Source: Halarchaeum nitratireducens (GTDB taxonomy: Archaea > Halobacteriota > Halobacteria > Halobacteriales > Halobacteriaceae). From it: DNA of 64,000 bases. The stretch spans positions 1 to 64,000 of the forward strand of contig NZ_BMOQ01000004.1 of assembly GCF_014647155.1 (NCBI RefSeq), given 5' to 3'. A program made the translations under genes and the position numbers. The notes under the pieces are model-generated. The model did not search any database and was not told the origin of the DNA. It saw nothing but the letters and a program-made list of their open reading frames with translations. Positions 1,727 to 40,813 of this stretch are shown piece by piece. Every line of letters starts with the position of its first letter. Positions within the stretch are counted from its first letter, which is position 1.

Positions 1727-2168
1727 TTCAATTTGAAGTGTGGAGTGGAAGCCTAATTGATTTACTCTTCCTACACTATCACAGAATGAGCAGCCTCGAT
1801 AGACGCGCTAAACACATTCACTATGGATAGATTGTGAGTCGTGAGTGCCGAGGCCGACCTATTACCGACTCGCGAAGTGAGGCGCACTGTCCCCATAGAG
1901 CGCCGCCTGTTGGTGACCGGATAGGGCGATAGATAGCGTCCCGAGAGCGACAGCGCGCTCCCGGACGCGGTCCGGTTACTCCGTTCGTCCGCTCTGACCG
2001 TCTCGCGCTCCAAGGTAGCTGGGCGATTGTCACGTCTTCAGCGGTGGTTCGGGGACACCGGCGGTGAGCTCCCGGCACGCGGTCGTCGAACGGATACGAC
2101 GACACCAGTTGGCTTCGCCGGGTGGGACTCCCCCGTACGCATTTGTGACGGTCGCCGAAACGACGTAC
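1727..2168. other. Gap at the edge of the AT-rich segment
   Basis: This 440-nt stretch marks the change from the AT-richer left segment to normal high-GC sequence, at about 1800-1850. Open frames in it have the basic, Arg/Ser-rich composition of non-coding GC-rich DNA and are not credible. The left end holds the FRG gene promoter, and the right end should hold the promoter of the HTH-10 regulator. No tRNA or attachment-site duplication was recognised. Confidence 0.5.
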
Positions 2169-2813
2169 ATGGGTATCATTTGCGAGTTCGAGTTGGAGTT
2201 AGCGGATTTGCCGCTGTGTGCCATCGCAGAGGAACTGGACTCCAGGCTGATCGTCGACAACGTCGTCTCCAGGGCGACCGACGAGACGACACTCGTGTTC
2301 TCCGCGACGGGCGTCGAACCGAACGCGCTCGAGTCGGCATTGCTCGGCGACGAATCGGTCGTGGAGTCCGTTGCCATCGACTCGACTGTCGTCGAGTCCC
2401 GGTATCGGGTCGTTCTCGATACGGACTACGTCGAAATATACACTCAACTGGTCGCCCGGCAGACGTACCCGATGGGTGCGATCGTGACCGCGCACGGGTG
2501 GACGGTGAGCACGCAGTTCGCCGACCGAGCGGATCTCGAAGCCTTCCGGGACGCCTGTCAGTCTAGCAATGTCACGTTCCGTCCACATCGGGTCTGCGAG
2601 ACGGAACACGGCGGCGACGACTACGGACTCACCGCCCCCCAGCGGGAGGCACTACTGGTGGCCTACCGACTGGGGTATTTCGCCGTCCCCCGCGAGGCAG
2701 ACCTGACAGATCTTTCGGCGGAACTCGACGCGACCACGTCCGCGATCTCGGAGCGTCTCCGCCGTGGAACGCACCAGTTGATTGATCACACCCTCGCCAG
2801 TTCCGAACGGTGA
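2169..2813 (+). CDS. HTH-10 (Bat-type) DNA-binding regulator
   Basis: This is a haloarchaeal regulator of the bacterio-opsin-activator type. The N-terminal about 150 residues form the unclassified sensor or associated region. The last about 55 residues hold the HTH-10 domain: LTAPQREALLVAYRLGYF, then a PRE element, DLSAEL, and SAISERLRRG as recognition helix. I chose ATG 2169 (214 aa, MGIICEFELEL), because the upstream extension in frame is basic and unlike the family. It sits directly upstream of, and parallel to, the oleate hydratase gene, with a near-palindrome between them, so it may regulate that gene; this is inference. A second member of the family lies at 17242. Confidence 0.82.
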   Translation: MGIICEFELELADLPLCAIAEELDSRLIVDNVVSRATDETTLVFSATGVEPNALESALLGDESVVESVAIDSTVVESRYRVVLDTDYVEIYTQLVARQTYPMGAIVTAHGWTVSTQFADRADLEAFRDACQSSNVTFRPHRVCETEHGGDDYGLTAPQREALLVAYRLGYFAVPREADLTDLSAELDATTSAISERLRRGTHQLIDHTLASSER

Positions 2814-2856
2814 CGGTGGGCTCTCCGGAGCGTAGCTGTACTGTGACCATATCCAA

Positions 2857-2884
2857 CCGCATATGAATTGCTGTACATGTGCGG
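2857..2884. promoter_or_regulatory. Near-palindrome upstream of oleate hydratase (possible operator)
   Basis: The arms CCGCATATG (2857-2865) and CATGTGCGG (2876-2884) pair at 8 of 9 positions around a 10-nt spacer. They lie 50-80 nt before the ATG of the oleate hydratase gene and just after the HTH-10 regulator gene. The position suits an archaeal operator, but no binding protein is proven. Confidence 0.35.
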
Positions 2885-2934
2885 GCAACGGTTAGGGAAC
2901 TGACGCGCGTATCACTCGATAACGGGAACTCAAC

Positions 2935-4524
2935 ATGACTATCCACCAGCCCCCACACGTCACTGACCGCGACGCACACTTCGTCGGCGGCGGCATCGCG
3001 TCCCTCGCCGGCGCGGCGTTCCTCGTCCGGGACGGAAATATGCCCGGCGAGAACATCTCCGTCTACGAAAAGCTCGACGTCGTCGGTGGCGCGTTGGACG
3101 GCGCCGGCGACCCGGACGAGGGCTACCTGATTCGGGGTGGTAGGATGTTCAACTACCCGACGTACGAATGTACGTGGAACCTCTTCGAGTCCATCCCGTC
3201 GCTCGAAGACGACTCGCGCTCGGTCAAAGCCGTGATGGACGAGTTCAACGAAGCGCACCCCTCGTACGCGAAAACACGACTGATGCGCGAGGGCGAACGG
3301 ATCGACGCGGGCGAGTACGGGCTGACGCGCCAGCACCGGCAGTCGATAGCTCGGTTGCTCCTCACGCCCGAACCGCGACTCGGAGACACACGTATCGAGG
3401 AGTGGTTCGACGAGTCGTTCCTGGAGACGAACTTCTGGTACGTCTGGGCGACTATCTTCGCGTTCCAGCCGTGGCACAGCGTCGCCGAAGTCCGGCGATA
3501 CATGTACCGGTTCCTCCACGAGTTCCCCCAGCTACACACCATGGAGGGCATTGATCGGACGAAGTACAACCAGTACGACTCGATGATTCTCCCGCTCCGG
3601 CAGTGGCTTGAGGACCGCGGCGTCAATTTCGAGTACGGTCACGAGGTGACGGACATGGACATCATCCCGTCGCGAACGGGGCGCACCGTCGAGCGCATCT
3701 ACTGTGAGACCGACAGCGGAACCGAGTCAGTCGACGTTGACGCGTCGGATCTCGTGTTCGTGACGAACGGGTCGATGACCGACGGCTCGTCTGTCGGCGG
3801 GATGGACGAGGTCCCCGAACTGAACGAGACCGGCGCGTCCTGGGAGCTGTGGAAGTCCATCGCCGAGGACAACCCGCAGTTCGGGACTCCCTCTGTGTTC
3901 GCGGACAACGTCACGGAGACGAAGTGGGAGTCGTTCACCGTCACCCTGCACAACACCGAACTGTTCGACCACATCGTCGATTTCACCGACGAGGAGCCAG
4001 GTAACGGGCTCGTCACCTACCTCGGATCGAACTGGCTGTTGTCGACGGTCGTCGCCGCGCAGCCCCACTTCGCGAACCAACCGGACGACGTGAAGGTCTT
4101 CTGGGGCTACGCACTGTTCCCGGACCGACAGGGGAACTACGTGGAGAAGCCGATGTCGGAGTGTACCGGCCGGGAGATCCTTCGGGAGCTGTGTTACCAC
4201 CTGCAGTGTGAAGACCGTCTCCCGGAGATACTCGACAGCGTGACCTGCATCCCAGTGATGATGCCGTTCATCACGGCCCACTTCCAGCCTCGGGTACCCG
4301 GTGACCGGCCAGCGATCGTCCCGGACGGGTCGAACAATCTGGCGTTCCTCGGACAGTACGCCGAACAGCCGCGCGACGTCGTGTTCACCGTCGAGTACTC
4401 GGTTCGGTCGGCGATGACTGCTGTCTACGAGATGCTCGACGTCGACGAGACGGTCCCGCCGGTGACGAAACACTACCGGGACCCTTCCGTCCTCGTGGAC
4501 GCCGTTCGCGCGGCGCACCGGTGA
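2935..4524 (+). CDS. ohyA: Oleate hydratase (myosin-cross-reactive antigen family)
   Basis: The enzyme adds water across the cis-9 double bond of oleate and related unsaturated fatty acids, using FAD as a structural cofactor. An N-terminal dinucleotide-binding motif GGGIASLAG (18-26) is followed by a VYEK strand end and VVGGALDGAG (49-58). The family hallmark GGRMFNYPTYECTWNLF spans about 68-84, and the Glu there (residue 78) aligns by memory with the catalytic Glu of bacterial enzymes. At 529 residues it is slightly shorter than typical bacterial homologues. Haloarchaeal lipids are isoprenoid, so the substrate is probably environmental fatty acid, and detoxification or a carbon use role is inferred. 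The gene stands alone behind an HTH-10 regulator. A weak hairpin (ACGGGA/TCCCGT, 4533-4548) follows the stop. Confidence 0.9.
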   Translation: MTIHQPPHVTDRDAHFVGGGIASLAGAAFLVRDGNMPGENISVYEKLDVVGGALDGAGDPDEGYLIRGGRMFNYPTYECTWNLFESIPSLEDDSRSVKAVMDEFNEAHPSYAKTRLMREGERIDAGEYGLTRQHRQSIARLLLTPEPRLGDTRIEEWFDESFLETNFWYVWATIFAFQPWHSVAEVRRYMYRFLHEFPQLHTMEGIDRTKYNQYDSMILPLRQWLEDRGVNFEYGHEVTDMDIIPSRTGRTVERIYCETDSGTESVDVDASDLVFVTNGSMTDGSSVGGMDEVPELNETGASWELWKSIAEDNPQFGTPSVFADNVTETKWESFTVTLHNTELFDHIVDFTDEEPGNGLVTYLGSNWLLSTVVAAQPHFANQPDDVKVFWGYALFPDRQGNYVEKPMSECTGREILRELCYHLQCEDRLPEILDSVTCIPVMMPFITAHFQPRVPGDRPAIVPDGSNNLAFLGQYAEQPRDVVFTVEYSVRSAMTAVYEMLDVDETVPPVTKHYRDPSVLVDAVRAAHR

Positions 4525-28474: not shown

Positions 28475-28854
28475 GCCGTGGCGTACCGTGTGGGGGCTGA
28501 AAAGCGTAGCGAACCATCTCTTTCCCGCTCGGGACGGCGAAGCCGACCGCTCGCGGCAAAAACACGGGTGAAAAAGAGCCGTCGGCCTCGCCGACGGTGA
28601 ACCGCTCGCTTCGCTCGCGGACGCTAAACTCGCACGTGGACCAACCGAACCACGGAGGCTAGCGTCCGCGAGCGAGCGGCTTGGAAAGCCCGAGCGAAGC
28701 GGTTCACTCGCCGTAGGCGAGGTCAAGAGCCGACCATCGGGAGGCTCGCGGACTTTTGGCCGAGCTTTTGCAAGCGCAGGCGCGGCGAAGCCGCGCCAAG
28801 CGCTGCAAAAGGTCGTTCCGAAACCCTAACCCCGGCTCTCCCTGAATCGGTGGT
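28475..28854. other. Intergenic gap filled with hairpin repeats
   Basis: This 380-nt divergent gap between thrB and a FAD enzyme has no credible gene. It contains CCGTCGGC/GCCGACGG (8-bp stem, near 28581-28599), a 15-bp inverted repeat with arms CGCTCGCGGACGCTA and its complement, and one copy of the dispersed repeat described separately. Confidence 0.6.
28637..28817 (+). repeat. Dispersed hairpin element, copy A
   Basis: Composite repeat also found at 38464-38701 (inverted) and 39191-39344 (direct). The 65-nt right part (28753-28817) matches copy B at 63 of 65 positions by eye. It starts CTTTTGGCCGAGCTTTTGC and folds as two nested stems, the inner GGCGCGGC/GCCGCGCC with GAA loop. The left part (28641-28681) matches copy C at 37 of 41 positions. 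The middle holds CTCGCC/GGCGAG and GAGCC/GGCTC hairpins. Confidence 0.7.
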
Positions 28855-30168
28855 ATGATCGGGATCGTTGGCGGCGGGATCGCGGGGCTGGCGGCGGCGC
28901 GACGACTCCAGGCCGCGGGCCGCGAGGTGACGGTGTTCGAGGCGTCCGAGGAGGTCGGCGGGCTCGCGGCGACGTACGAGACGGGCGGAGATCGCTTGGA
29001 GAAGTTCTACCACCACCTCTCGGGCTCCGAGGAGACGATCGTCGAACTGATCGAGGAGCTGGGCCTCGGCGACGACCTGACGTGGCCGATCGGGAAGAAC
29101 GCCTACTACATCGACGGAACGATCCACCCGATGGACAAGCCGTGGGAGATCCTCTCCTTTCCCTACTGGAGTCTCTACGACACGTTCCGGCTGGGGATGC
29201 TCGTCCTCGACGTCGACGTGCGCGGGGGGATCCCGACGTTCGACTCCTACGAGGACCTCCGCGAGTACGAGGACGTTCCGGTGAAGGAGTTCTGCATCGA
29301 GCACACGACGCGGAACGTCTACGAGACGTTCTTCGAGCCGCTCTTGGAGGCGAAGTTCGGCGAGCGCGCGGAGGACGTCTCGGCGGCGTGGCTGCTCGGT
29401 CGCATCAAGTTCCGCGGGGAGCGCGACCTGCTGAAGGGCGAACCCCTCGGGTATCTCCGCGGGGGATTCGGCCGCCTGCTGGACGCGCTCCTCCGGGACG
29501 TCGGGAGCGACACCGTGGAGACGAACACCCGGGTGACCGACCTCTCGTTCGGCGAAGCGGGCGTGGAGACGCTCACCGCCGAATCCGGGGACGGGACGAC
29601 CGAGACGCACGAGGTCGAGTCGGTCGTCGTCGCGGCGATGCCGAACGTCCTCGAAGGACTCACGGGCTACGAGTGCGACATCGAGTTCCAGGGGACGGTC
29701 TGCTCCGTGATCTCCATGTCGGAGTCGCTCACGGACACGTACTGGCTGAACGTCGCGGACGACGCGCCCTTCGGCGCGCTGATCGAGCACACGAACTTCA
29801 TCGACGAATCGCACTACGGCGGCGAACACCTCCTCTACGTCCCGAAGTACGTCCAGAGCCCCGAGGATCCCGTGTGGGCGATGGACGACGACGAGGTGGC
29901 CGACACGTGGATCGAGGGGATCGAGGCGCTGTTCCCCGACTTCGATCGCGAGTCGGTCAACTGGGTACAGACGGCGCGCAACCCCCGGACTGCGCCGATC
30001 TACGAGCGCGGCTACCTCGACATGGTGGTGCCCTACGACCTCGCAGACGACGGCGCACCGGGCGTCTACTACGCGGGGATGGCGAGCGAGGCGCAGTATC
30101 CCGAGCGCTCGCTGAACGGTGGGATCGTCGCCGGCTACGAGGTCGCCGACCGAATCACGGAGCGCTGA
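28855..30168 (+). CDS. FAD-dependent amine-oxidase/protoporphyrinogen-oxidase-like oxidoreductase
   Basis: A 437-residue flavoenzyme. The N-terminal GIVGGGIAGLAAARRLQAAG is the dinucleotide-binding motif, with EVGGLAATYETGGDRLEKFYHHL following, and the C-terminus has GVYYAGMASEAQYPERSLNGGIVAG, the second FAD contact. Homologues are annotated as protoporphyrinogen oxidase-like or NAD(P)-binding desaturases, and several sit in polysaccharide clusters. No heme or glycan genes are adjacent, so the substrate is unknown. It does not look like a true HemG or HemY. It starts 38 nt after dispersed repeat copy A. Confidence 0.75.
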   Translation: MIGIVGGGIAGLAAARRLQAAGREVTVFEASEEVGGLAATYETGGDRLEKFYHHLSGSEETIVELIEELGLGDDLTWPIGKNAYYIDGTIHPMDKPWEILSFPYWSLYDTFRLGMLVLDVDVRGGIPTFDSYEDLREYEDVPVKEFCIEHTTRNVYETFFEPLLEAKFGERAEDVSAAWLLGRIKFRGERDLLKGEPLGYLRGGFGRLLDALLRDVGSDTVETNTRVTDLSFGEAGVETLTAESGDGTTETHEVESVVVAAMPNVLEGLTGYECDIEFQGTVCSVISMSESLTDTYWLNVADDAPFGALIEHTNFIDESHYGGEHLLYVPKYVQSPEDPVWAMDDDEVADTWIEGIEALFPDFDRESVNWVQTARNPRTAPIYERGYLDMVVPYDLADDGAPGVYYAGMASEAQYPERSLNGGIVAGYEVADRITER

Positions 30169-30210
30169 CGGGTACCGTCGGTGGGCGCTCGGGCGCCAGT
30201 GCCGGGCCGC

Positions 30211-30792
30211 TCAGCGCTCGCCCGCACCGGGCGCGTCGTCGACGTCGACGCCCTCGGGTACCGCTTGGCTCCCGCGTTTCGTCTCGCCGTCGCCGTCTTC
30301 GACGTAGACGTCGTCGGCGAATCCGGCTTCGGCGTGCGGGAACTCCCCCTCCTCCAGGCGGTCGGGCGTGGCGGTGGCCTCGGGGAGTCCGCCTTCGGGG
30401 GCGAACTCACCCAGTGGGTCCTCAACGGTGATCCCGTGCGCCTCGAAGAAGTCGCGGTGGCGCTCGTAGTGGGCGTCGATCTCCTCCGGGGGGTACTCCA
30501 TCATCTCCGCCCAGCCGTGGTTGTAGAAGTCGAAGGTGGCGACGACGTGCGTCATCTCGCGGGCCGTCGCCTCGTCGAACCCGTCCTGCAGGGCGGTGAG
30601 GTACATCTCGGTGCTGGCGTCGAAGAACGCTTCGAGGTGGGGGATCCGCTCCTCGCGGTACTCGGGGTCGGCCCACCCGCCGAAGACGGAGACGTGGATG
30701 TCGACGAGCTTCTCGTGGACGACGTCGCCGACGCCGGGCATCTCTAAGGCCTTCTGCGCCGCGAAGTGCGTGACGTTCTGCCGCAGCTTCAT
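30211..30792 (-). CDS. Conserved haloarchaeal protein (tentatively DUF6149)
   Basis: A 193-residue soluble acidic protein starting MKLRQNVTHFAAQKALEMPG. It is mainly helical in pattern (HLEAFFDASTEMYLTALQDGFDEATAREMTHVVATFDFYNHGWAEMMEYPP) with a disordered acidic tail. I believe it to be the haloarchaeal DUF6149 family, but this is from memory. The ATG at 30792 is preferred, because the much longer frame runs antisense to the next gene. It diverges from the oxidoreductase at 30922. Confidence 0.7.
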   Translation of the reverse strand: MKLRQNVTHFAAQKALEMPGVGDVVHEKLVDIHVSVFGGWADPEYREERIPHLEAFFDASTEMYLTALQDGFDEATAREMTHVVATFDFYNHGWAEMMEYPPEEIDAHYERHRDFFEAHGITVEDPLGEFAPEGGLPEATATPDRLEEGEFPHAEAGFADDVYVEDGDGETKRGSQAVPEGVDVDDAPGAGER

Positions 30793-30921
30793 ACGCGGAC
30801 TATGGGATGCGACGTACAAAGACCCACCCATCGCGGTGATTCCGTGACACACAGCGGTAACGAGTGCCGGAACCGACAACGGATAGCAATCGACTTTAAC
30901 CCGGAACGCACAGTGCCAGTT

Positions 30922-32166
30922 ATGAGTCAGTCGTTCGTGATCATCGGTGACGGGGTCGCGGGGAGTTCCGCGGCGGAAACGATCCGCGAGCGCGAACCCG
31001 ACGCCGACGTCACCATCCTCACCGACGAGGGCGAGGCCCTCTACAACCGCATCCTCATCAAGGAGTTCGCCAAGGGGAAACTCCCCGAGGCGCCGATCTC
31101 CATCCACGACGAGTCGTGGTACGACGAGCGCGACATCGACCTGCGGCTCAACACGCTCGTCACGGACATCGACACCGACGCTCACGTCGTCCACACGCAC
31201 GAGGGCGACGACTTGGCGTACGACGCGGTGCTCGTCGCGACCGGCGGGACACCCACACAGCTCCCCGTCGAGAACAGCGACGCCGACGGCATCCACCACT
31301 TCTGGACGTTCGAGGACGCCCGTCGCATCCGGGAGCACACCGAGAAGGCGGACTCGGGCGTTATTGTCGGCGCGGGCCTCCTTGGGATCGACCTCGCGGC
31401 CATCTGTGCCGGGCAGGACATCGACGCGAAATACCTGATGCGCGGCAACCGCTGGTGGCGCTATGCCCTCAGCGAGGACGGCGCGGAGATCATCCACGAC
31501 GCGCTCGCCGAGAAGGGCATCGAGCCGGTCTTCGAGTCCGGCGCGTCGGGCTTCGAGACGGACGACGACGGGCACGTCGTCGCGACGCTCGGCGGCGACG
31601 GCGGGCGCTACGAATCGGACTTCGTCGGCATCGCCATCGGCCTCAACTTCAACGTCGAGTTCCTCCAGGACACGGGCGTGACGATCGATAACGGCATCGT
31701 CGTCGACGAGTACATGCGCACCGACGCCGAGGACGTCTACGCGGCCGGCGACATCACGCGCTTCTACGACACGATCCGCGACACGCACGCGCAGAACGGC
31801 TCGTGGGGCTCCGCGAAACAGCAGGGGTCCGTCGCGGGGCACGCGATGACCGCCGACGACGTCGAGGACGACGTCGAGGCGTTCCGCTGGGTCTCCTCCT
31901 ACTCCATCACGCACTTCGACTTCCCGTTCCTCTCCTTTGGCTTCCCGACGGACGGCGACGAGCACGCAGAACGGCGCTACTCGGAGACGGAGTGGCGGCG
32001 TCTCGCCTTCGAGGACGGGAAGCTCATCGGCGGCGTCCTCATCGGCGACCTCGCCCCGCAGTCGAAGTACAAACAGCTCATCCGCGCCGAGGCGGACGTC
32101 GCCGACCAATCCGACGTCCTCCTCCAGCAGAACTTCGAGCTCGAAGAGCTCGACGTCGATCTGTAG
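30922..32166 (+). CDS. NAD(P)/FAD-dependent oxidoreductase, rubredoxin/nitrite-reductase-like
   Basis: A 414-residue pyridine nucleotide-disulfide oxidoreductase of the ferredoxin/rubredoxin reductase type. FAD motif GDGVAGSSAAETI near residues 9-21, ATGG segment near 108, NAD motif GVIVGAGLLGIDLA near 145-160, and EDVYAAGDITRF before the C-terminal domain. No redox-active Cys pair is present. The electron acceptor is unknown. A TTTAA-type TATA-like element about 27 nt before ATG 30922 supports the start. It is typical of haloarchaeal electron-transfer enzymes without an adjacent partner. Confidence 0.85.
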   Translation: MSQSFVIIGDGVAGSSAAETIREREPDADVTILTDEGEALYNRILIKEFAKGKLPEAPISIHDESWYDERDIDLRLNTLVTDIDTDAHVVHTHEGDDLAYDAVLVATGGTPTQLPVENSDADGIHHFWTFEDARRIREHTEKADSGVIVGAGLLGIDLAAICAGQDIDAKYLMRGNRWWRYALSEDGAEIIHDALAEKGIEPVFESGASGFETDDDGHVVATLGGDGGRYESDFVGIAIGLNFNVEFLQDTGVTIDNGIVVDEYMRTDAEDVYAAGDITRFYDTIRDTHAQNGSWGSAKQQGSVAGHAMTADDVEDDVEAFRWVSSYSITHFDFPFLSFGFPTDGDEHAERRYSETEWRRLAFEDGKLIGGVLIGDLAPQSKYKQLIRAEADVADQSDVLLQQNFELEELDVDL

Positions 32167-32339
32167 GGAGTCACGGCGAAACGCGCTTTTTTCGCGTACG
32201 CCGCCGCGCGGACGGCGCCGATGCGATCGGTGAGAGGACGCGCGACGGGATCGCCACACCGCGCGGTGTCGGCCCCGCGTGCGTGGGCGCTATCGCCCCG
32301 ACCGAAGCCGTTTTCCACGCGAGCGGCCCTTTCGTACCT

Positions 32340-32759
32340 ATGAGCATGAGCGGCGGGAGCACGGACATGACGCTCGCCTTCGAGCTGGCCGCGCTCAAGC
32401 GACTCGTGAAGCCCGGGACCGCGTTCGCCGACGCCCGACAGTGGACGGAGTACGTCGGCGTCGTGAGCGACGAACCGACGTACGTCGTCACGAACTTCAC
32501 GCGCAAGCGCCGGATCAGACAGGACTTCTTCTCCGGCCCGAAGGACAAACGCGAGAGCTTGGAGAACGTAAAGAGCCAGTTCGAGACCGATCGGCACGTC
32601 TTCGTCGGCACGAGCGAGGCCGACGAGGCGCTCGCCGCCGAGACGGGATGGGAGTATCTCGCCGTCGAGGACGCCGCCGAGGCCGCCGGGTGGGAGCTCG
32701 GCGACCCCGCGGAGGCCGAGGCAGAGGGCGGCGAACCCGAACGCGACGACTGGCCGTAG
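32340..32759 (+). CDS. Conserved haloarchaeal protein (tentatively DUF7124)
   Basis: A 139-residue acidic protein beginning MSMSGGSTDMTLAFELAALK. Distinctive conserved-looking stretches are ARQWTEYVGVVSDEPTYVV and NFTRKRRIRQDFFSGP, the latter basic and therefore possibly nucleic-acid-binding. From memory this resembles haloarchaeal DUF7124; no function is known. Its stop (TAG) abuts the ATG of the next gene, so both are probably translated from one mRNA. Confidence 0.68.
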   Translation: MSMSGGSTDMTLAFELAALKRLVKPGTAFADARQWTEYVGVVSDEPTYVVTNFTRKRRIRQDFFSGPKDKRESLENVKSQFETDRHVFVGTSEADEALAAETGWEYLAVEDAAEAAGWELGDPAEAEAEGGEPERDDWP

Positions 32760-33350
32760 ATGACCGATACGGGACCGCGCGTGCCGGACGCCGGCGGCGA
32801 CGGCGACCGCGGTGGATCGGGAGACGACGCCGCCCCGGACGACGGGACCGTGGCGCTCCCCTGCGGTGAGACGGTCCACCGCTCGGCGTTCGACCTCGGG
32901 ATGCGCGAGTACGAGTGCGCCTGCGGCGAGCGCCACGCCGTCGTGATGGACATGCATCCGCCCTCGCGTTTCGTGCCGGAGGCCGTCGTCGACGTCCTGC
33001 GCGAGACGGTGAGCGTGGGGGAGGACGACGCCTTCGAGGCGTTCGGCACCCCCCACCTGATGGGGAGCGTGCTGGAGGAGTTCCCGGACGACGTGACCGT
33101 CGTCGACGCGACCGACGACGGGCGGGTCGGCTACGCGATGCTGTGGGCGACGGCCTTCGACGCGCGGACGCTCCACGAGCACGTCGTCGAGCTCGTCGTC
33201 GAGCTGATGGAGCACGCGGTGAGCCACGCGCGCGACGACGCCGCGCGGGGCGACTTCGAGGAGCAGATGCTCGATTTCGACGTGGCGGAGTTCGTCGAGC
33301 GCTACCGGCGAAACCGCGACTGGCGGGACGAGTACGACGCGCCCGCGTGA
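32760..33350 (+). CDS. Conserved haloarchaeal protein with CxC-type motif (tentatively DUF5815)
   Basis: A 196-residue protein. The disordered acidic N-terminus (1-35) is followed by LPCGETVHRSAFDLGMREYECACGERHAVVMDMH, with three Cys and several His that could bind zinc. A long helical part follows. It starts immediately after the preceding stop. The family is tentatively DUF5815; its function is unknown. Pairing with the upstream gene suggests a shared role. Confidence 0.68.
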   Translation: MTDTGPRVPDAGGDGDRGGSGDDAAPDDGTVALPCGETVHRSAFDLGMREYECACGERHAVVMDMHPPSRFVPEAVVDVLRETVSVGEDDAFEAFGTPHLMGSVLEEFPDDVTVVDATDDGRVGYAMLWATAFDARTLHEHVVELVVELMEHAVSHARDDAARGDFEEQMLDFDVAEFVERYRRNRDWRDEYDAPA

Positions 33351-33409
33351 GGCGCACAGGGGGAAGCGCGAACGGGCGTCACGCGCGGCCCCGCCGCCGT
33401 CGCCGCTGA

Positions 33410-33467
33410 TTACGATTTTCGAAATCCGGTTACGAGATTTGCACCGTTTCGGTTCGCTTATTACGAT
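33410..33467. promoter_or_regulatory. carB upstream region with three TTACGA half-sites
   Basis: TTACGATTTTCG (33410-33421), TTACGAG (33430-33436) and TTACGATGTACG (33461-33472) lie before carB. The last overlaps the TATA-like TTATTACG, 26-33 nt before the ATG. The same half-site forms the palindrome between carA and the Lrp gene, so one regulator may control both car genes although they are not in one operon. Confidence 0.45.
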
Positions 33468-33490
33468 GTACGCACTCGTCTCCGATAGAC

Positions 33491-36400
33491 ATGAGTGACG
33501 ACCGGACCGTCCTCCTCATCGGAAGCGGCCCGATACAGATCGGTCAGGCGGCAGAGTTCGACTACTCCGGCGCGCAGGCGTGTCGCGCCCTGCAGGAGGA
33601 AGGGGCCCGAGTCGTCCTCGTCAACTCCAACCCCGCCACGATCATGACGGACCCCGAGATGGCGGACGAGGTGTACATCGAACCCATCACCACCGACGCC
33701 ATCGCGGAGGTCATCGCCGAAGAGGAACCCGACGGCGTGATCGCCGGCCTCGGCGGGCAGACGGGGCTGAACGTCACCGCCGAACTGGCCGAAGAGGGGG
33801 TCCTCGACGAGTACGATGTCGAGATCATGGGGACGCCCCTCGACACCATCTACGCGACGGAGGACCGCGAGCTCTTCCGCCAGCGGATGCACGACCTCGG
33901 CCAGCCGGTCGCGCGCTCGACCACCATCAGCCTCGACGAGGGCGAGAGCGTCCAGGACCTCGACGCGGACGCGCTCGGCGAGCGCGTCGAGGACGCCGTC
34001 GAATCGGTCGGCGGACTGCCGGTCATCATGCGGACCACGTACACGCTGGGCGGCTCCGGTTCCGGCGTCGTCGAGGACATGGAGGTCCTCAAAGAGCGCG
34101 TTCGCAAGGGCCTGCGCCTCTCCCGGAACGACGAGGTGCTCATCACCGAATCCATCGCCGGCTGGGTCGAACTCGAGTACGAGGTGATGCGCGACGCCGG
34201 CGACTCCACGGTCATCATCTGCAACATGGAGAACATCGACCCGATGGGCATCCACACCGGGGAGTCCACGGTCGTCACGCCGTCGCAGGTCATCCCGGAC
34301 GACGGTCACCAGGAGATGCGCGACGCGGCCCTGGAGGTCATCCGCGATCTCGGTATCGAGGGCGGCTGTAACATCCAGTTCGCGTGGCGCGACGACGGCA
34401 CGCCGGGCGGCGAGTATCGCGTGGTGGAGGTGAACCCGCGCGTCTCGCGCTCCTCCGCGCTCGCCTCGAAGGCGACCGGCTACCCCATCGCGCGCGTCAC
34501 CGCGAAGGTCGCGCTCGGCAAGCGCCTCCACGAGATCACGAACGAGATCACGGGCGAGACGACGGCCGCCTTCGAGCCCGCGATCGACTACGTCGTCACG
34601 AAGGTGCCGCGCTGGCCCAAGGACAAGTTCGACAACGTGGACTTCACGCTCGGCACCGCGATGAAGAGCACGGGCGAGGCGATGGCGATCGGACGCACCT
34701 TCGAGGAGTCGCTGTTGAAGGCGATGCGTTCGAGCGAGTACGAACCCGATGTCGACTGGGCGAGCCTCTCGGACGACGAGCTCGCCGAGACGTACGTCGC
34801 GCGCCCGAGCCCCGATCGCCCCTACGCGATTTTCGAGGCGTTCGACCGCGGCTTCACGATCGACGAAGTCGTCGATCTCACCGGCATCGAGGAGTGGTAC
34901 GTCGAGCGCTTCGCGCGGATCGCCGACGCCGCCGACGGCGCGAAAGACGGCGCGTTCACCGACGCCGCCATCGAGGGCTTCACGAACCACGAGATCACGG
35001 CGCTCGCCGGCGGGGCGTTCGACGACACGCACCCGTCGTGGTTGCCCGCGGACGTCGAGGCCGAGGCCTCCGCCGACGGGCCCGAAGCGCGCCCCGACGG
35101 CGCGGGCGTGAGCGTCGCGGACGTCGAGGCCGACGTCCCCGGGCGCACCTACAAGCAGGTCGACACCTGCGCGGGCGAGTTCGAAGCTCAGACGCCGTAC
35201 TACTACTCCTCGCGCAAGCCCGAGTGGTTCAGCGGACCCTTCGAGGGCGAGTCCGCGGGCGGCGAGCTCCGCGTCGATCACGACACCGACTCGGTCGTCG
35301 TCGTCGGCGGCGGCCCCATCCGCATCGGACAGGGCGTCGAGTTCGATTACTGCTCCGTCCACGCCGTCCGCGCGCTGCGCGAGGAGGGCGTCGAGGCCCA
35401 CGTCGTCAACAACAACCCGGAGACGGTCTCGACCGACTACGACACCAGCGACGGCCTGTTCTTCGAGCCGATCACCGCCGAGGAGGTCGCGGACGTCGTC
35501 GAGGCAACCGGCGCCGACGGCGTGATGGTCCAGTTCGGCGGCCAGACGTCCGTGAACGTCGCGGACGAGCTCGAAGCCGAGATCGACCGGCGCGGGCTAA
35601 GTGCAAAAATCCTCGGGACGAGCGTCGAGGCGATGGACTTAGCGGAGGACCGCGATCGCTTCAACGTCCTGATGGACGGCCTCGGAATCAGCCAGCCGGA
35701 CGGCGGCACGGCGACGAGCAAAGCGGAGGCCCTCGACCTCGCGCACGATCTGGGCTACCCCGTGCTCGTCCGGCCGTCCTACGTCCTCGGCGGGCGCGCG
35801 ATGGACGTCGTCCACAGCGACGCGGAGCTCGAGGGGTACATCGAGGAGGCCGTCCGGGTCGCCCCCGACAAGCCGATCCTCGTCGACGAGTTCCTCGCGG
35901 ACGCCGTCGAGCTCGACGTTGACGCCGTCTCGGACGGCGAGGACGTCCTCATCGGCGGCGTAATGGAGCACGTCGAGGCCGCCGGCGTCCACAGCGGTGA
36001 CTCGGCCTGCGTCATCCCGCCGCGCAACCTCGACGACGAGACGCTCGGTCGCGTCCGCGAGGTCGTCGAGGAGATCGCGCGCGCGCTCGAAACCGTCGGC
36101 CTGCTCAACGTCCAGCTCGCCGTGAAGGACGGCGAAGTCTACGTGCTGGAGGCGAACCCCCGCTCATCGCGCACCGTTCCGTTCGTCTCGAAGGCGACCG
36201 GCGTCCCCATCGCCAAGCTCGCCGCGAAGGTCATGGCGGGCGACTCGCTCGCCGACCTCGGCGTCGAGGAGGGCGTCCCCGAGCAGTTCAGCGTCAAGGA
36301 GGTCGTCCTCCCGTTCGATCGCTTCGAGGGCGCGGACCCGCGTCTCGGTCCCGAGATGAAGTCCACGGGCGAGGTCATGGGGACCGCCCGGAGCTTCGGG

Positions 36401-36733
36401 AAGGCCTACGAGAAGGCCCAATCCGCGGCCGGCAACCCGCTTCCCGAGGGCGGCGTCGCCGTCGTGGACTTCGACCTCGACGGCTTCGACGACTACTACG
36501 ACGTCCGCGCGTTCGACGACGTTCCCGAGGCGATCCGGCAGAATGAACTCGACCTCTACGTGGGCGACGACGTCCACGCGCTCCAGACCGCCATCGAGGA
36601 GGAACTCCCCTACATCTCCACGATCGCCAGCGCCGAGGCGAGCCTCGAAGCCCTCGCCCACCGCGAGGACGACCTCGACGTCGCCTCCGTCAGCTCCCGC
36701 CCCATCACGAACACCACGTGGGGCGGCGACTGA
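33491..36733 (+). CDS. carB: Carbamoyl-phosphate synthase large subunit
   Basis: It makes carbamoyl phosphate for arginine and pyrimidines from bicarbonate, ATP and ammonia delivered by CarA. It has 1080 residues with the duplicated architecture: first ATP-grasp half (about 1-400, with IGSGPIQIGQAAEFDYSG and AGLGGQTGLN), oligomerisation domain (about 400-550), second half (about 570-930, with VVGGGPIRIGQGVEFDYCSVH) and an allosteric MGS-like end that looks shorter than in E. coli. The ATG at 33491 is 26 nt after a TATA-like element. carA is 3' and convergent, not cotranscribed. Confidence 0.96.
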   Translation: MSDDRTVLLIGSGPIQIGQAAEFDYSGAQACRALQEEGARVVLVNSNPATIMTDPEMADEVYIEPITTDAIAEVIAEEEPDGVIAGLGGQTGLNVTAELAEEGVLDEYDVEIMGTPLDTIYATEDRELFRQRMHDLGQPVARSTTISLDEGESVQDLDADALGERVEDAVESVGGLPVIMRTTYTLGGSGSGVVEDMEVLKERVRKGLRLSRNDEVLITESIAGWVELEYEVMRDAGDSTVIICNMENIDPMGIHTGESTVVTPSQVIPDDGHQEMRDAALEVIRDLGIEGGCNIQFAWRDDGTPGGEYRVVEVNPRVSRSSALASKATGYPIARVTAKVALGKRLHEITNEITGETTAAFEPAIDYVVTKVPRWPKDKFDNVDFTLGTAMKSTGEAMAIGRTFEESLLKAMRSSEYEPDVDWASLSDDELAETYVARPSPDRPYAIFEAFDRGFTIDEVVDLTGIEEWYVERFARIADAADGAKDGAFTDAAIEGFTNHEITALAGGAFDDTHPSWLPADVEAEASADGPEARPDGAGVSVADVEADVPGRTYKQVDTCAGEFEAQTPYYYSSRKPEWFSGPFEGESAGGELRVDHDTDSVVVVGGGPIRIGQGVEFDYCSVHAVRALREEGVEAHVVNNNPETVSTDYDTSDGLFFEPITAEEVADVVEATGADGVMVQFGGQTSVNVADELEAEIDRRGLSAKILGTSVEAMDLAEDRDRFNVLMDGLGISQPDGGTATSKAEALDLAHDLGYPVLVRPSYVLGGRAMDVVHSDAELEGYIEEAVRVAPDKPILVDEFLADAVELDVDAVSDGEDVLIGGVMEHVEAAGVHSGDSACVIPPRNLDDETLGRVREVVEEIARALETVGLLNVQLAVKDGEVYVLEANPRSSRTVPFVSKATGVPIAKLAAKVMAGDSLADLGVEEGVPEQFSVKEVVLPFDRFEGADPRLGPEMKSTGEVMGTARSFGKAYEKAQSAAGNPLPEGGVAVVDFDLDGFDDYYDVRAFDDVPEAIRQNELDLYVGDDVHALQTAIEEELPYISTIASAEASLEALAHREDDLDVASVSSRPITNTTWGGD

Positions 36734-36904
36734 CGCCTCGCGGGCGGTACCTCGTCTCCTCCCACGACGGCTCTTTTCGCGGATCGTCCCCAGACGGCTA
36801 GCGCGACTCGCGCGGCGTCATCGAGCGCCGTCGCTCGCCGCGCGAGTCGGGACAGGAAACTTCGGAGGACCGCCGGAATCCGAGAGAGCCGCGCGTTCGA
36901 GCGC

Positions 36905-37957
36905 TTACGCGGTGACTTGCCGGCTCTCCGCGAGTTCGAGAACTTCGTCGAAGAAGTCGAGGGTGTCGTGCGGGCCGGGGTTCGCCTCGGGGTGGTACTG
37001 GCGGGTGAGGATGCCGTACTCGGTGCTGTCGAGGCCTTCGGGGGTGTCGTCGTTGACGTTCACCTGCGTGACGGTGAGGTCGCCGGGCTCGGCGACCGTG
37101 TAGCCGTGGTTCTGCGTCGTCATGACGACCCGTCCCGTATCGTGGTCGAGGACGGGCTGGTTGACCCCGCGGTGACCGAAGTCCATCTTCTCCGTCGTCC
37201 CGCCGAGGGCGCGCGCGACGACCTGCTGGCCGAGGCAGATGCCCGCGATGGGGAGCTCGCCGGTGAAGTGCTCGACGAGGGTCCGGGCCGCCTCGAAGTT
37301 CGCGGGATCGCCGGGGCCGTTCGAGATGAAGAGGACGTCCGGATCGAGCGCCTCGACGTCCTCGGGCGTGGTGTCGTAGGGGAGGACGTGCACGTCGGCG
37401 TTCCGCGCGGTGAGCGAGTCGACGATGGAGCCCTTCGCGCCACAGTCGATCAGCGCGACGCGTGCACCGGATCCCTCGTGGTGGATCGGCTCGTCGACGC
37501 TGACGTCCGCGCCGATGTCCGTGATGTCGCTCATGTGCGGGCACGTGTCGAGTTGCGCCTTCGCCTCCTCGGGCGAGGCGTCGGGGCCGGCGGAGACGCC
37601 AACCTTCATCGCGCCGCGGTCGCGGATGTCCGTGACGAGATCGCGCGTGTCGACGTGGTCGACGGCGGGAACGCCCTCCGACTCGAGCCATTCGGCGACG
37701 TCGTCGGTCATCTCGCGCGCGACGACGGCGTAGGGGTGGACGCGATCAGACTCGAAGCGCTCCTCTCGGACGCCGTAGTTCCCGATGAGGGGGTAGGAGA
37801 AGGTGAGCACCTGGGCCTCGTAGGAGGGGTCGGTGAGACTCTCCTCGTACCCGGTGTAGGCGGTCGTGAACACGAGTTCGCCCTGGGCCGCACCCGGGGC
37901 GCGTGCACGCGCTTCGACTACGTCCCCCGTTTCGAGGGCGAGGTAGGCGTCCGACAT
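36905..37957 (-). CDS. carA: Carbamoyl-phosphate synthase small (glutaminase) subunit
   Basis: A glutamine amidotransferase that feeds ammonia to CarB. It has 350 residues. The N-terminal CPSase domain starts MSDAYLALETGDVVEARA. The class I glutaminase has the nucleophile in AGICLGQQ (Cys241) and the His/Glu of QYHPEANPGP (322 and 324). All are present. I take the ATG at 37957, because GGCTTATTGTC, a TATA-like box, is about 28 nt upstream on the minus strand. It diverges from the Lrp/AsnC gene across a strong palindrome. Confidence 0.95.
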   Translation of the reverse strand: MSDAYLALETGDVVEARARAPGAAQGELVFTTAYTGYEESLTDPSYEAQVLTFSYPLIGNYGVREERFESDRVHPYAVVAREMTDDVAEWLESEGVPAVDHVDTRDLVTDIRDRGAMKVGVSAGPDASPEEAKAQLDTCPHMSDITDIGADVSVDEPIHHEGSGARVALIDCGAKGSIVDSLTARNADVHVLPYDTTPEDVEALDPDVLFISNGPGDPANFEAARTLVEHFTGELPIAGICLGQQVVARALGGTTEKMDFGHRGVNQPVLDHDTGRVVMTTQNHGYTVAEPGDLTVTQVNVNDDTPEGLDSTEYGILTRQYHPEANPGPHDTLDFFDEVLELAESRQVTA

Positions 37958-37995
37958 TACGAGAAGCGAACGCACCTCCCGACAATAAGCCTTGC

Positions 37996-38024
37996 TTTCG
38001 TAGCGTCGTTACGAAATTCGTAAC
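37996..38024. promoter_or_regulatory. Palindromic operator between carA and the Lrp/AsnC gene
   Basis: GTTACGAAATTCGTAAC (38008-38024) is an 8-bp inverted repeat around one base. An overlapping pair TTTCGTA (37996-38002) and TACGAAA (38010-38016) is inverted around a 7-nt spacer. The site abuts the carA TATA element and overlaps the BRE/TATA region of the regulator gene, so a bound protein could repress both. The adjacent Lrp is the obvious candidate. Confidence 0.6.
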
Positions 38025-38054
38025 TCCTTTCGCACGCCACGCCGTCCGTCCCGT

Positions 38055-38465
38055 ATGGACGACCTCGACCGGCAGATCCTGGACGTCCTCCGACGCGACG
38101 CCAGGACCCCCTACACCGAGATCGGTGACGAACTCGGCGTCAGCGAGGGTACCATCCGCAACCGCGTCGAGCGCTTGCAGGAGGACGGCGTCATCGAGCG
38201 CTTCACCATCTCGACCAGCACGGGGAACGTCAAGGCGATGATCGAAGTCGACGTCGCCGTCGACGTCGACACTCACCGCGTCGGCGATCAGATCGCCGAG
38301 TGGCCCGAAGTCGATTTCGTCTGGCAGGTCTCCGGCGAACTCGACATCGTCGTCGTCGTCGACGCAGACGACACCGGCCGCGTCAACGAACTCATCACCA
38401 AGACGCGCGAACTCGACGACGTTACGACGACGAAGACGCGACTCATACTGGACGAAACCCTGTAA
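38055..38465 (+). CDS. Lrp/AsnC family transcriptional regulator
   Basis: A 136-residue archaeal Lrp-type regulator. The AsnC-type winged HTH (1-55) reads DLDRQILDVLRRDARTPYTEIGDELGVSEGTIRNRVERLQ, followed by the RAM ligand-binding domain (about 60-136). Such proteins form dimers and octamers and sense amino acids. Divergence from carA across a palindrome suggests control of carbamoyl phosphate synthesis and of itself, perhaps in response to glutamine or arginine. The dispersed repeat copy C starts immediately at its stop codon. Confidence 0.92.
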   Translation: MDDLDRQILDVLRRDARTPYTEIGDELGVSEGTIRNRVERLQEDGVIERFTISTSTGNVKAMIEVDVAVDVDTHRVGDQIAEWPEVDFVWQVSGELDIVVVVDADDTGRVNELITKTRELDDVTTTKTRLILDETL

Positions 38466-38701
38466 ATCGACCTTTTGCCGCGCTCGTGGTTCGAGAGACG
38501 GTGTCGCCGTCTCTCATCATCATGAAAGCGCGAAGCGCCTTTCGAATGACTTCGCTCGCTGGCAAAAGCTCGGCCAAAAGCGGCGTCGGCCACCTTCGGT
38601 GGTCTCGCCGCCTCGCGCCTCCGGCGCGAGTGAACCGGCGACCTACCGGGTCCTAACGACCGCTCGCTCGCGGATGCTATCCTCCGTGGTTCGTTCGGTC
38701 T
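38464..38701 (-). repeat. Dispersed hairpin element, copy C (inverted)
   Basis: Read on the minus strand it has the same order as copy A: left module (38701-38661), middle hairpins, then the right module. That module starts with an exact 19-nt match to copy A (38580-38562) and ends GCGGCAAAAGGTCGATTT. Its interior differs, with a 9-bp stem GAGAGACGG/CCGTCTCTC (38492-38514) and a GAAAGCGC/GCGC stem. So the ends are conserved while stem sequences vary. Confidence 0.65.
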
Positions 38702-38790
38702 ATGTGTGTATCGGACGATACCAGTATCATCGTATTGTAAGGCCCGTATGCGGACGAACTGACTATATGCTGGGATACTAGACAAACCGT
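38466..38790. other. Gap between the Lrp gene and a membrane-protein gene
   Basis: This 325-nt gap consists mainly of repeat copy C (to about 38701), followed by about 90 nt of AT-richer sequence that should hold the promoter of the membrane-protein gene. There is no credible ORF. Confidence 0.6.
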
Positions 38791-39147
38791 ATGAACCGCG
38801 CCCTCCCTGTCGCACTCGGTGTCGGCGTCCTCGTCGCTGCCGCCGTCTACGCTTTGCTCGTCTCTGATTGGTACGTTGCGGGCTGTCTCGGTGGAACATA
38901 CGCAGGAGTAGCGTACTTCGCGTCTGCCTACTCTAGTACCGTCTTCCGGTATCGAACGAGATTCACCGAGCGCACGGACAAGGTCGGTGATTTCATTGGT
39001 CTCATGGGGGTCAACCTTGGCATTCTTGCGTTCATCGCTTACCTCAACACGTCCACTCGCGTGACAGCCGCCCTCGTCATCTGGTACACTGGAGCCGTGG
39101 CATTCATCCTCTTTGCAACGCACGTCCGCCACGAAGTCGGCGCGTAA
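38791..39147 (+). CDS. Small membrane protein of foreign-looking composition
   Basis: A 118-residue protein with four likely membrane segments (about 5-24, 30-47, 68-86, 90-110), joined by a basic loop (RYRTRFTERTDK). I do not recognise the family. GC content is visibly lower than in neighbours, and codons such as GGT, GCA and TCT are frequent. The gene lies between the Lrp gene and rfcL, enclosed by two inverted copies of the dispersed hairpin repeat that end exactly at the stop codons of both neighbours. It therefore looks like cargo inserted between two core genes. Confidence 0.65.
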   Translation: MNRALPVALGVGVLVAAAVYALLVSDWYVAGCLGGTYAGVAYFASAYSSTVFRYRTRFTERTDKVGDFIGLMGVNLGILAFIAYLNTSTRVTAALVIWYTGAVAFILFATHVRHEVGA

Positions 39148-39190
39148 GACCGAGGGTCTACATCGAACCCTCCACGCGGTAGTGTTCGGC

Positions 39191-39344
39191 GACCGAGCGG
39201 GTCGATAGACCCCGGTAGGTCGCCGATTCCCTCGCGCGTTAGCGCGAGGCCGAGGAGGGACCGGAGATCCCGACGTTGGCTTTTGGTCGAGCTTTTGCAA
39301 GCGCAGGCGCGGCGAAGCCGCGCCGAGCGCTGCAAAAGGTCGTT
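39191..39344 (+). repeat. Dispersed hairpin element, copy B
   Basis: It shares CGGTAGGTCGCCG with copy C and the 65-nt right module (39280-39344) with copy A. The middle hairpin CCTCGCGC/GCGCGAGG differs in sequence from the equivalent stems of A (CTCGCC/GGCGAG) and C (CTCGCGCC/GGCGCGAG), yet all three pair perfectly. Its last base touches the rfcL stop codon (39344-39346). Confidence 0.68.
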
Positions 39345-40813
39345 TAGAAGAATTCGTCGAGGCCGCTCTGCATGTCGTCGTCCTCGGCGTCGTCGCTCTT
39401 CGTGTCCGTCTCCTGTTCGTCGACGAAGACGTCGGCCTCGTCGCCCGTTTCGTCGGTTTCCGCTGTATCCTCTTTCGCCTCGACGTCGGCGTCGACGTCC
39501 GTCTGCCCGGCGAACGCGCCCCCGGAGTGTTCGACGGCGGCTTCGGCCTTCGACGCCTCGGCGTCGGCGACGATGTCCGCCACCTTGTTCGTGTCCTTCC
39601 CGCTGCCGGTGACGAACGCGACGTGCTCTGCCTCCAGGTCGTAGGCGGCGGCCATCGCCACGGTGAGCTCGCGGGGCTTGCAGTGATGCGTCATTGCGGC
39701 GAGGAACGGCATGACCTCGCGGCGGGCGCTCGCCATCGAGCACCCCGATTTCTCGGCGATCTTGCGGGCGACGTAGTCGCGGGTGTTCCGCGTGCCTTTC
39801 GTCCGGCCGAGCTTCGACCAGTAGGACGGGGGGCCGTAGCGCGTCCACCCGCCTTTGGGCTCGCGGCGGGCGGCGGCGACGCCGGCGGCGACGTTGTCGG
39901 TCGCGTAGCGCCAGTAGGAGTAGTCCTGCGTGGCGCGCACGCGCCCGAGCCACTTATCGGCGTTCGCGAGGAAACCGTAGGCGTCCGCGAGCTCGGCCCT
40001 GCCGTAGTCCTTCGGGACGTTGTCCTCCACCCAGTTGAGGAGGTCGTCCGGCGTCTCGTCGACGTCGTAGGCGGCGTAGAGCGACTCCTGTGCGCCCTTC
40101 TCTTTGATGACGTCGTCGAGGAAGTCGAAGATGCCCTCGGTGGTGTCTCGATCACCGGTGACGATGTCGTCCTCGGTGAGGACTTCGCGTTCCTCGGCGA
40201 GCGCCTGGAGGTCGTTGATCGCCGACCGGAGGTCTCCCGCGTTCTTCTGGGCGAGCGCCGAGAGCGCGGCGTCCTCGTACTCGACGCCCTCGCGTCGACA
40301 GACGTCGCGGAGGACGGGGACGATGGAGCGCTTGCCGACGTCGCGGAACTCGATCTCCTGACAGGCGTTCCGGAGGGCGTTCGACATGTCGTAGTACTCG
40401 TTGGCGATGAGCACCATCGGCTGGGTCGCTTCCTTGACGAGGCGCGTGACGGCGCGCGCGCCCCCGCGATCGGCGTTCCCGTGGATGTTGTCCGCTTCGT
40501 CCATGATGACGAGCTTTCGACCGCCGGTGCCACCGCCGAGCGTGCCGGATTTCGCGGCCTCGCCAGCGACGCGCTCGATGACGTCCTTCGTGCGCGTGTC
40601 GCTCGCGTTCAACTCGATCGCGTCCCACCCCATGTCGTTGGCGAGCGCGTGCGCCGCGGAGGTCTTCCCCACGCCGGGGCTCCCGTGGACGACGACGGCT
40701 TCCCGGTGATCGTCCCACGTCTCCGCCCACTGCTTGAGGTCGTCGCGGGCCGAGTCGTTCCCGCGGACCTCCGAGAGCGTCGTCGGGCGGTACTTCTCCG
40801 TCCAGTCTACCAT
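39344..40813 (-). CDS. rfcL: Replication factor C large subunit
   Basis: The large subunit of the archaeal clamp loader that opens PCNA around DNA. It has 489 residues. AAA+ motifs are Walker A HGSPGVGKTSAAHAL (near 43-57), Walker B VIMDEAD (102-108), and sensor regions with NEYYDMSNALRN. The acidic low-complexity C-terminal region (about 420-480) ends in QSGLDEFF (482-489), a complete PCNA-interacting box (QxxLxxFF) that anchors it to the clamp. Length is normal for haloarchaea. Confidence 0.96.
   Translation of the reverse strand: MVDWTEKYRPTTLSEVRGNDSARDDLKQWAETWDDHREAVVVHGSPGVGKTSAAHALANDMGWDAIELNASDTRTKDVIERVAGEAAKSGTLGGGTGGRKLVIMDEADNIHGNADRGGARAVTRLVKEATQPMVLIANEYYDMSNALRNACQEIEFRDVGKRSIVPVLRDVCRREGVEYEDAALSALAQKNAGDLRSAINDLQALAEEREVLTEDDIVTGDRDTTEGIFDFLDDVIKEKGAQESLYAAYDVDETPDDLLNWVEDNVPKDYGRAELADAYGFLANADKWLGRVRATQDYSYWRYATDNVAAGVAAARREPKGGWTRYGPPSYWSKLGRTKGTRNTRDYVARKIAEKSGCSMASARREVMPFLAAMTHHCKPRELTVAMAAAYDLEAEHVAFVTGSGKDTNKVADIVADAEASKAEAAVEHSGGAFAGQTDVDADVEAKEDTAETDETGDEADVFVDEQETDTKSDDAEDDDMQSGLDEFF

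Follow-up and report, generated by a model that had tools for sequence, protein, structure and literature searches.

Within the 64-kb stretch of Halarchaeum nitratireducens DNA analyzed here (the window; genome G000), two core genes converge on a short, AT-richer interval. The left neighbor, lrp (38055 to 38465, forward strand), encodes an Lrp/AsnC-family regulator (Pfam HTH_AsnC-type, 1.9e-17; AsnC_trans_reg, 4.6e-13) and ends in a TAA stop codon at 38463 to 38465. The right neighbor, rfcL (39344 to 40813, reverse strand, with its stop codon at 39344), encodes the replication factor C large subunit (AAA, 9.9e-12; RFC lid, 8e-8), and the corresponding protein of Halarchaeum rubridurum (G003) is 93% identical. 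Between them lie two facing copies of one composite repeat, here called arms. The left arm (copy C; 38468 to 38685, forward strand), in which the first hairpin is enlarged, scores 115.1 bits with the covariance model R1 (E = 6.3e-30), and its outer end, CGACCTTTTGC, begins at 38468, 2 nt past the lrp stop codon. The right arm (copy B; 39174 to 39342, reverse strand), which has a positional counterpart in Halarchaeum acidiphilum (G001), scores 146.3 bits (E = 2.1e-38), and its outer end, the inverted copy GCAAAAGGTCG, finishes at 39342, 1 nt past the rfcL stop codon. The two arms match in inverted orientation over stretches of 38 nt (87% identity), 25 nt (92%), and 22 nt (91%).

The arms enclose an AT-richer spacer (38686 to 38790, forward strand) and a cargo gene for a hydrophobic (membrane) protein of 118 amino acids (38791 to 39147, forward strand). 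The spacer carries a TATA-like sequence, CTATATGC, about 26 nt 5' of the ATG, which we presume to be the promoter of a leaderless transcript of the cargo gene. The GC content of the gene is 0.588, compared with 0.688 for the window, and its GC3 is 0.68, compared with 0.87 for lrp and 0.92 for rfcL. A preliminary description of this DNA had reported the facing repeats around a membrane protein gene, the abutment of their outer ends on the two stop codons, and the lower GC content of the enclosed gene, and the analysis bears out all three. Profile searches of the protein against Pfam, NCBIfam, and PADLOC gave no match; homologs with 29 to 35% identity occur in other haloarchaea, and a paralog with 76% identity lies elsewhere in the same genome (G000:C8:6866-7219), on a contig with a GC content of 0.53 to 0.67 where sampled. 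The gene was not found in the other three Halarchaeum genomes, and none of its relatives elsewhere, the contig C8 paralog included, is flanked by arms. Near that paralog there is a probable toxin-antitoxin-like gene pair (L139 10515-11422, on G000:C8), the second gene of which has an 89% identical copy at C8:140571-141137 and an 87% identical copy in H. rubridurum.

The 10-mer CAAAAGGTCG occurs three times in the 64 kb, against 0.01 expected copies, and the third copy belongs to a sister element at 28.5 to 28.8 kb. This element (28515 to 28815) lies between a FAD-type gene and thrB and carries no cargo. Its main arm (28654 to 28815, reverse strand) scores 132.3 bits with the covariance model, and a second, divergent arm (28515 to 28632, forward strand) scores 23.3 bits.

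Structure and distribution of the arm family

Alignment of 35 arms showed that an arm is about 160 to 220 nt long (about 170 to 220 nt at the lrp/rfcL site) and consists of at least four hairpins in series: H1 (CTTTTGC..GCAAAAG), the sequence CTCGRCCAAAAGC, H2, H3 (CTCGCC..GGCGAG), and H4, which contains an inner hairpin. The terminal repeats are inverted, as first described, but they are not the simple 11-bp ends originally envisaged. Double compensatory changes were found in 27 of the 37 arm base pairs. Pairing was retained in 93.5% of alignment cells, compared with 79% after shuffling (0 of 500 shuffles reached the observed value) and 35 to 44% in slid controls; the covariation score was 0.378, compared with 0.142 for shuffled (again 0 of 500) and 0.05 to 0.08 for slid alignments. 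G-T/G-U combinations occupied just 35 of 1,274 cells, and Watson-Crick pairing therefore appears to be kept, a pattern that would be no less expected of a DNA palindrome than of an RNA structure. Searches of Rfam 15 gave no significant match on the element, and among ten loci that carry arms none had a match at the gathering level. A second, divergent kind of arm end, of the form GGCTTTTTCACCCRTGTTTTTGC..hairpin..GGAAAAAGATGG, pairs with the main type; it is found in the sister element (window 28515-28632) and at L125 4099-4244, L132 ~8056, L137 ~4155, and L150 ~3819, and it forms the far end of the elements in L132, L137, and the H. rubridurum lrp site.

DNA searches of the H. nitratireducens genome (3.14 Mb in 27 contigs) revealed about 20 further degenerate copies. 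A pattern search for the inner module returned 12 to 19 occurrences in each of the four Halarchaeum genomes examined (G000, G001, G002, and G003), compared with 0 to 2 for a reversed control, and across 84,980 prokaryote species the module occurred in more than 12 haloarchaeal genera, with 59 of the 61 matches being haloarchaeal. With the covariance model, we found 38 arms in the H. nitratireducens genome (E ≤ 0.001) and 32 to 43 in each of four more fully searched relatives; 24 of the 26 genomes searched in its own family had arms, as did 38 of the 59 searched in all. Since the repeat is genome-wide and crosses genera, the simple idea that the arms are the private ends of one transposon is rejected.

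All 38 H. nitratireducens arms lie on contigs C1, C3, C4, and C5, which make up about half of the assembly, and contig C2, whose GC content and sampled genes gave no decisive sign for or against a plasmid, is free of arms; in two relatives, G017 (39 arms) and G018 (32 arms), every arm is on contig C1, which accounts for most of each genome. This contig distribution suggests that the arms may be confined to the chromosome. Searches of plasmid, phage, and viral collections found no arm copies. We found no description of the family in the open-access literature on haloarchaeal intergenic and palindromic repeats, and within that coverage it may be previously undescribed.

Arms at gene boundaries

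Arms begin 0 to 4 nt behind stop codons or about 40 nt ahead of start codons. The four Halarchaeum genomes provided 62 arms for comparison with called genes. Of these, 23 begin no more than 5 nt from a stop codon (null expectation, 1.4%), and 11 end 36 to 50 nt from a start codon (null expectation, 3.1%). The counts of stop-abutting arms are lower bounds, because the simple gene caller used sometimes chose antisense frames, as for carA, and most of the other arms are visibly behind a stop codon that it missed. Two further arms follow an apparent tRNA 3' end (L128 3557 and L142 3860). At about 40 nt ahead of a start codon, an arm end falls just outside the position expected for a haloarchaeal BRE/TATA promoter. 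With ends at stop codons, at tRNA 3' ends, and about 40 nt before start codons, the arms therefore fill the space between functional boundaries.

The arms are rich in tracts of four or more T residues. On average, 160 nt of arm contain 0.96 such tracts in the inward and 1.89 in the outward reading direction, compared with 0.06 for the window. Work on a methanogen reports that archaeal termination efficiency is set by T-tracts together with aCPSF1 (PMC8716108), and the same may hold, by analogy, for the arms of haloarchaea. Together with their position behind stop codons, the T-tracts suggest that the arms may terminate transcription.

In five whole genomes, neighboring arms within 2 kb of each other faced inward in 22 cases, were in tandem in 7, and faced outward in none; a first count over Halarchaeum loci had given 18, 3, and 2, respectively. 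The inward-facing arrangement follows in part from the fact that arms point away from gene ends. Two arms around a center of about 15 nt are the unit seen most often in the Halobacteriaceae relatives, and many arms are single or paired without cargo. The preliminary description had raised the prospect of other genes enclosed by the same ends, and further gene-bearing pairs were indeed found. Their pockets contain a 143-amino-acid lipoprotein-like gene with a GC content of 0.43 (L129), genes for a 133-amino-acid membrane protein (L132) and a 65-amino-acid protein (L137), an AT-rich two-ORF stretch in H. acidiphilum (L158), the H. acidiphilum and H. rubridurum lrp-site genes described below, and, in another genus, a 300-amino-acid gene with a GC content of 0.42 in a locus of 0.65 (L243 1777-2679, reverse strand). 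None of the pocket proteins inspected has a convincing family match in Pfam, NCBIfam, or PADLOC, and for the L243 protein likewise no convincing Pfam or PADLOC match was found. At the hisG site, a 143-amino-acid lipoprotein is 89.5% identical between H. nitratireducens and G002, and this cargo looks vertically inherited. Some pairs of inward-facing arms enclose core genes, namely a nifU/iscU-like gene or a crcB-like pair (L244 and L246, in two Halobacteriaceae genomes, and L245), and the interiors are therefore not all accessory cargo. None of the arm pairs inspected has a transposase between its arms.

These data bear on a plainer reading of the lrp/rfcL site, that the arms are plain 3'-end terminators of lrp and rfcL, which face each other since the two genes converge, and that the 118-amino-acid gene is an accessory gene that landed between them. 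The distance of 0 to 4 nt from stop codons, the T-tracts, and the existence of single arms all agree with it. Yet about one-sixth of the arms instead end some 40 nt ahead of start codons, the relatives have compact two-arm units, four covarying hairpins over 160 nt exceed what a T-tract terminator needs, and inversions break at the elements (see below). We regard this reading as unlikely.

Cargo and gene order in Halarchaeum species

Comparison of four Halarchaeum species showed that in three of them unrelated small membrane genes lie beside arms at the lrp/rfcL site. In H. acidiphilum, an arm pair directly behind lrp encloses an unrelated 64-amino-acid membrane ORF. On the rfcL side, its arm shares 82.7% identity with the window arm over 173 aligned columns and is followed by a 43-bp stretch that is 88% identical to rfcL, and the adjacency therefore seems older than the split between the species. 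In H. rubridurum, a third ORF, of 100 amino acids, comes after the arm behind lrp; it is related to cargo in a different element of that genome (54% identity over 50 amino acids) and may have come with the thrB-side half of a recombined element. In G002, a histidine-kinase-like gene stands between the convergent lrp and rfcL, with no arms. With cargo of 118, 64, and 100 amino acids at one place, it is therefore the cargo that differs, while the arms and flanks persist. This pattern in four species suggests cargo exchange, with the proviso that independent gain and loss would leave the same picture. Over its first 63 to 66 nt, the rfcL-side arm of the window matches arms at two other H. nitratireducens loci at 97% and 95% identity, compared with 92% for the positional counterpart in H. 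acidiphilum, and this difference hints at within-genome exchange between arms.

The elements also coincide with breaks in gene order. A 10-kb segment reaching from the FAD-type gene to lrp and including carA and carB has the opposite orientation in H. rubridurum with respect to its flanks (window 28724-38486, compared with L140 3559-13666), with breakpoints inside the sister element (28515-28815) and the lrp/rfcL element; H. acidiphilum is colinear with the window across this segment. A second inversion, also bounded by elements, involves the single gene aRF1, encoding a peptide chain release factor, relative to argS (L125 2446-3773, compared with L144 3551-4878). A third element-bounded rearrangement concerns a geranylgeranyl-reductase-like gene (MTDHFDVVIAGAGPAGAQCARDLA..), which is at another element in H. 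rubridurum (L137/L138, compared with L153). A single filled/empty pair was found, in which the H. nitratireducens sequence L134 3443-3901 corresponds to a 30-nt spacer in H. rubridurum (L149); the spacer is replaced, not split, and there is no target duplication. Arm-bearing places are often common to several species. At L133, a sulfhydrylase-like gene (MAEDGADGERGLRTTSVHAGAKPDPVTGARATPIYQTTSYEF..; 2010-3314 in G000) lies between an element and its flank in H. nitratireducens only, and the flanks are much closer together in H. rubridurum and H. acidiphilum.

The preliminary description had raised the possibility of a nonautonomous mobile unit or cassette inserted without damage, and in its fuller form this would be a nonautonomous transposon of the MITE or mobile insertion cassette kind, with the whole 880-bp unit inserted by a transposase acting in trans. 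Part of this stands: a gene lies between terminal inverted repeats, it is absent from three relatives, and the cargo differs between species. The inverted ends, the AT-rich passenger gene, the filled and empty states of L134 and L149, and the many copies would all fit such a transposon. Insertion of the 880-bp unit as one piece, however, is not supported, given that there is no target duplication at lrp/rfcL or at L134, no transposase between the arm pairs inspected, and no arm beside relatives of the cargo gene elsewhere. Nor did the relatives provide the clean empty lrp-rfcL site that had been sought, G002 having its histidine-kinase-like gene there and H. rubridurum an inversion breakpoint. 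Also against a transposon are the lack of matches in plasmids, phages, and viral contigs, the restriction of all the H. nitratireducens copies to four contigs, the divergence of the arms, the occurrence of the same arm-bearing places in different species, and the exact fit of arms to stop codons, which is no known transposase target. We consider such a transposon improbable. The comparison does not, on the other hand, show vertically inherited cargo beside repeats that are always single, the outcome that the preliminary description had set against its proposal. The gene-boundary repeat family to which the arms belong is the older component, and the gene is the changeable part.

The observed anatomy, covariation, placement, and pairing of the arms, the different cargo at one place, and the inversions that break inside elements lead us to favor, as the probable explanation, chromosomal boundary or terminator foldback elements whose center tolerates accessory genes and which are reshuffled by recombination between arms. 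In such a model, the basic unit would be two inverted arms of about 160 to 220 nt around a short center, often of about 15 nt in the Halobacteriaceae relatives, each arm being a string of hairpins whose stem sequences may change as long as complementarity stays. The outer end would follow immediately on a stop codon or the 3' end of a tRNA, or else lie about 40 nt before a start codon, and the T-tracts would end transcription in both directions, from the neighboring gene and from the contents of the pocket. With termination from both sides, the insulated center could form a pocket that tolerates small genes; those for membrane proteins or lipoproteins, often AT-rich and with a promoter of their own, might persist there. 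Because similar arm sequences occur at many places, recombination or gene conversion between arms could exchange pocket genes and invert the segments between elements. A bolder version, which we think doubtful, would have the paired multi-hairpin arms as a chromosome-wide set of structured docking sites at haloarchaeal gene boundaries, with folding at the DNA level under selection and a recombination activity that swaps small genes and drives inversions, in effect a scattered, integrase-free cassette system.

Comparison with known systems

The arm family is widespread in several haloarchaeal genera; its structure is strongly constrained, and its position at gene boundaries is precise almost to the single base. 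If the arms are both terminators and recombination substrates, this would explain how small accessory membrane genes can harmlessly arrive and be replaced between core genes, and also where gene order breaks. Several known systems share some of these properties. Integron gene cassettes likewise combine small, promiscuous genes with structured recombination sites (attC), but the arms are inverted pairs at scattered places, and no attC core motifs were seen in them by eye. Archaeal T-tract terminators resemble the arms in having T-tracts just past the stop codon, and in the arms these read in both directions; unlike such terminators, an arm is long, covarying, and multi-hairpin and is also found upstream of promoters. 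The mobile insertion cassettes of the Bacillus cereus group carry a passenger gene between inverted repeats and no transposase. The ends of those cassettes are the ends of a known insertion sequence, whereas the terminal inverted repeats here showed no such parent among the arm pairs inspected and no target-site duplication at lrp/rfcL or at L134.

Nearer in lineage are the SMR, MITE, and PATE families of Haloquadratum, which are haloarchaeal, free of transposase, and either palindromic or bounded by inverted ends (PMC3119063). One Haloquadratum MITE, of the ISH2 type (HqIRS32), holds a nontransposase ORF, and the ends of these MITEs match known transposons; SMR-A is about 110 bp and mostly targets PATE and IS605 elements; and PATEs have no terminal inverted repeats and instead carry near-terminal palindromes related to IS605 (PMC3119063). 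Going by these descriptions, the arms would differ from all three families.

Both PATEs and the REP, BIME, and REPIN elements of bacteria raise the possibility that the hairpin pairs were spread as single-strand elements by a Y1/HUH transposase of the RAYT or IS605 type, which would leave no target duplication. The intergenic, inverted hairpin pairs, the lack of duplication, and the precedent of PATEs in Haloquadratum (PMC3119063) would agree with this. Against it, the H. nitratireducens genome (98% complete) has 38 arms and no match to the Y1 transposase profile (PF01797), no arms lie near the PF01797 genes of the other three Halarchaeum genomes, the arms are several times the length of a REP, and they are inverted repeats, as PATE ends are not. 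We therefore hold it to be very improbable that a Y1 transposase, such as the resident one tied to the repeats in REPIN/RAYT systems, spread the arms. The boundary elements favored here are archaeal, with arms of 160 to 220 nt and at least four hairpins, a distance of 0 to 4 nt to stop codons, and genes in their pockets, and in these respects they differ from REP, BIME, and REPIN elements. They share with them an intergenic, hairpin-forming, and noncoding nature, a frequent position behind genes, inverted pairing, and many copies, and it is these elements that, by analogy, seem most alike in their working.
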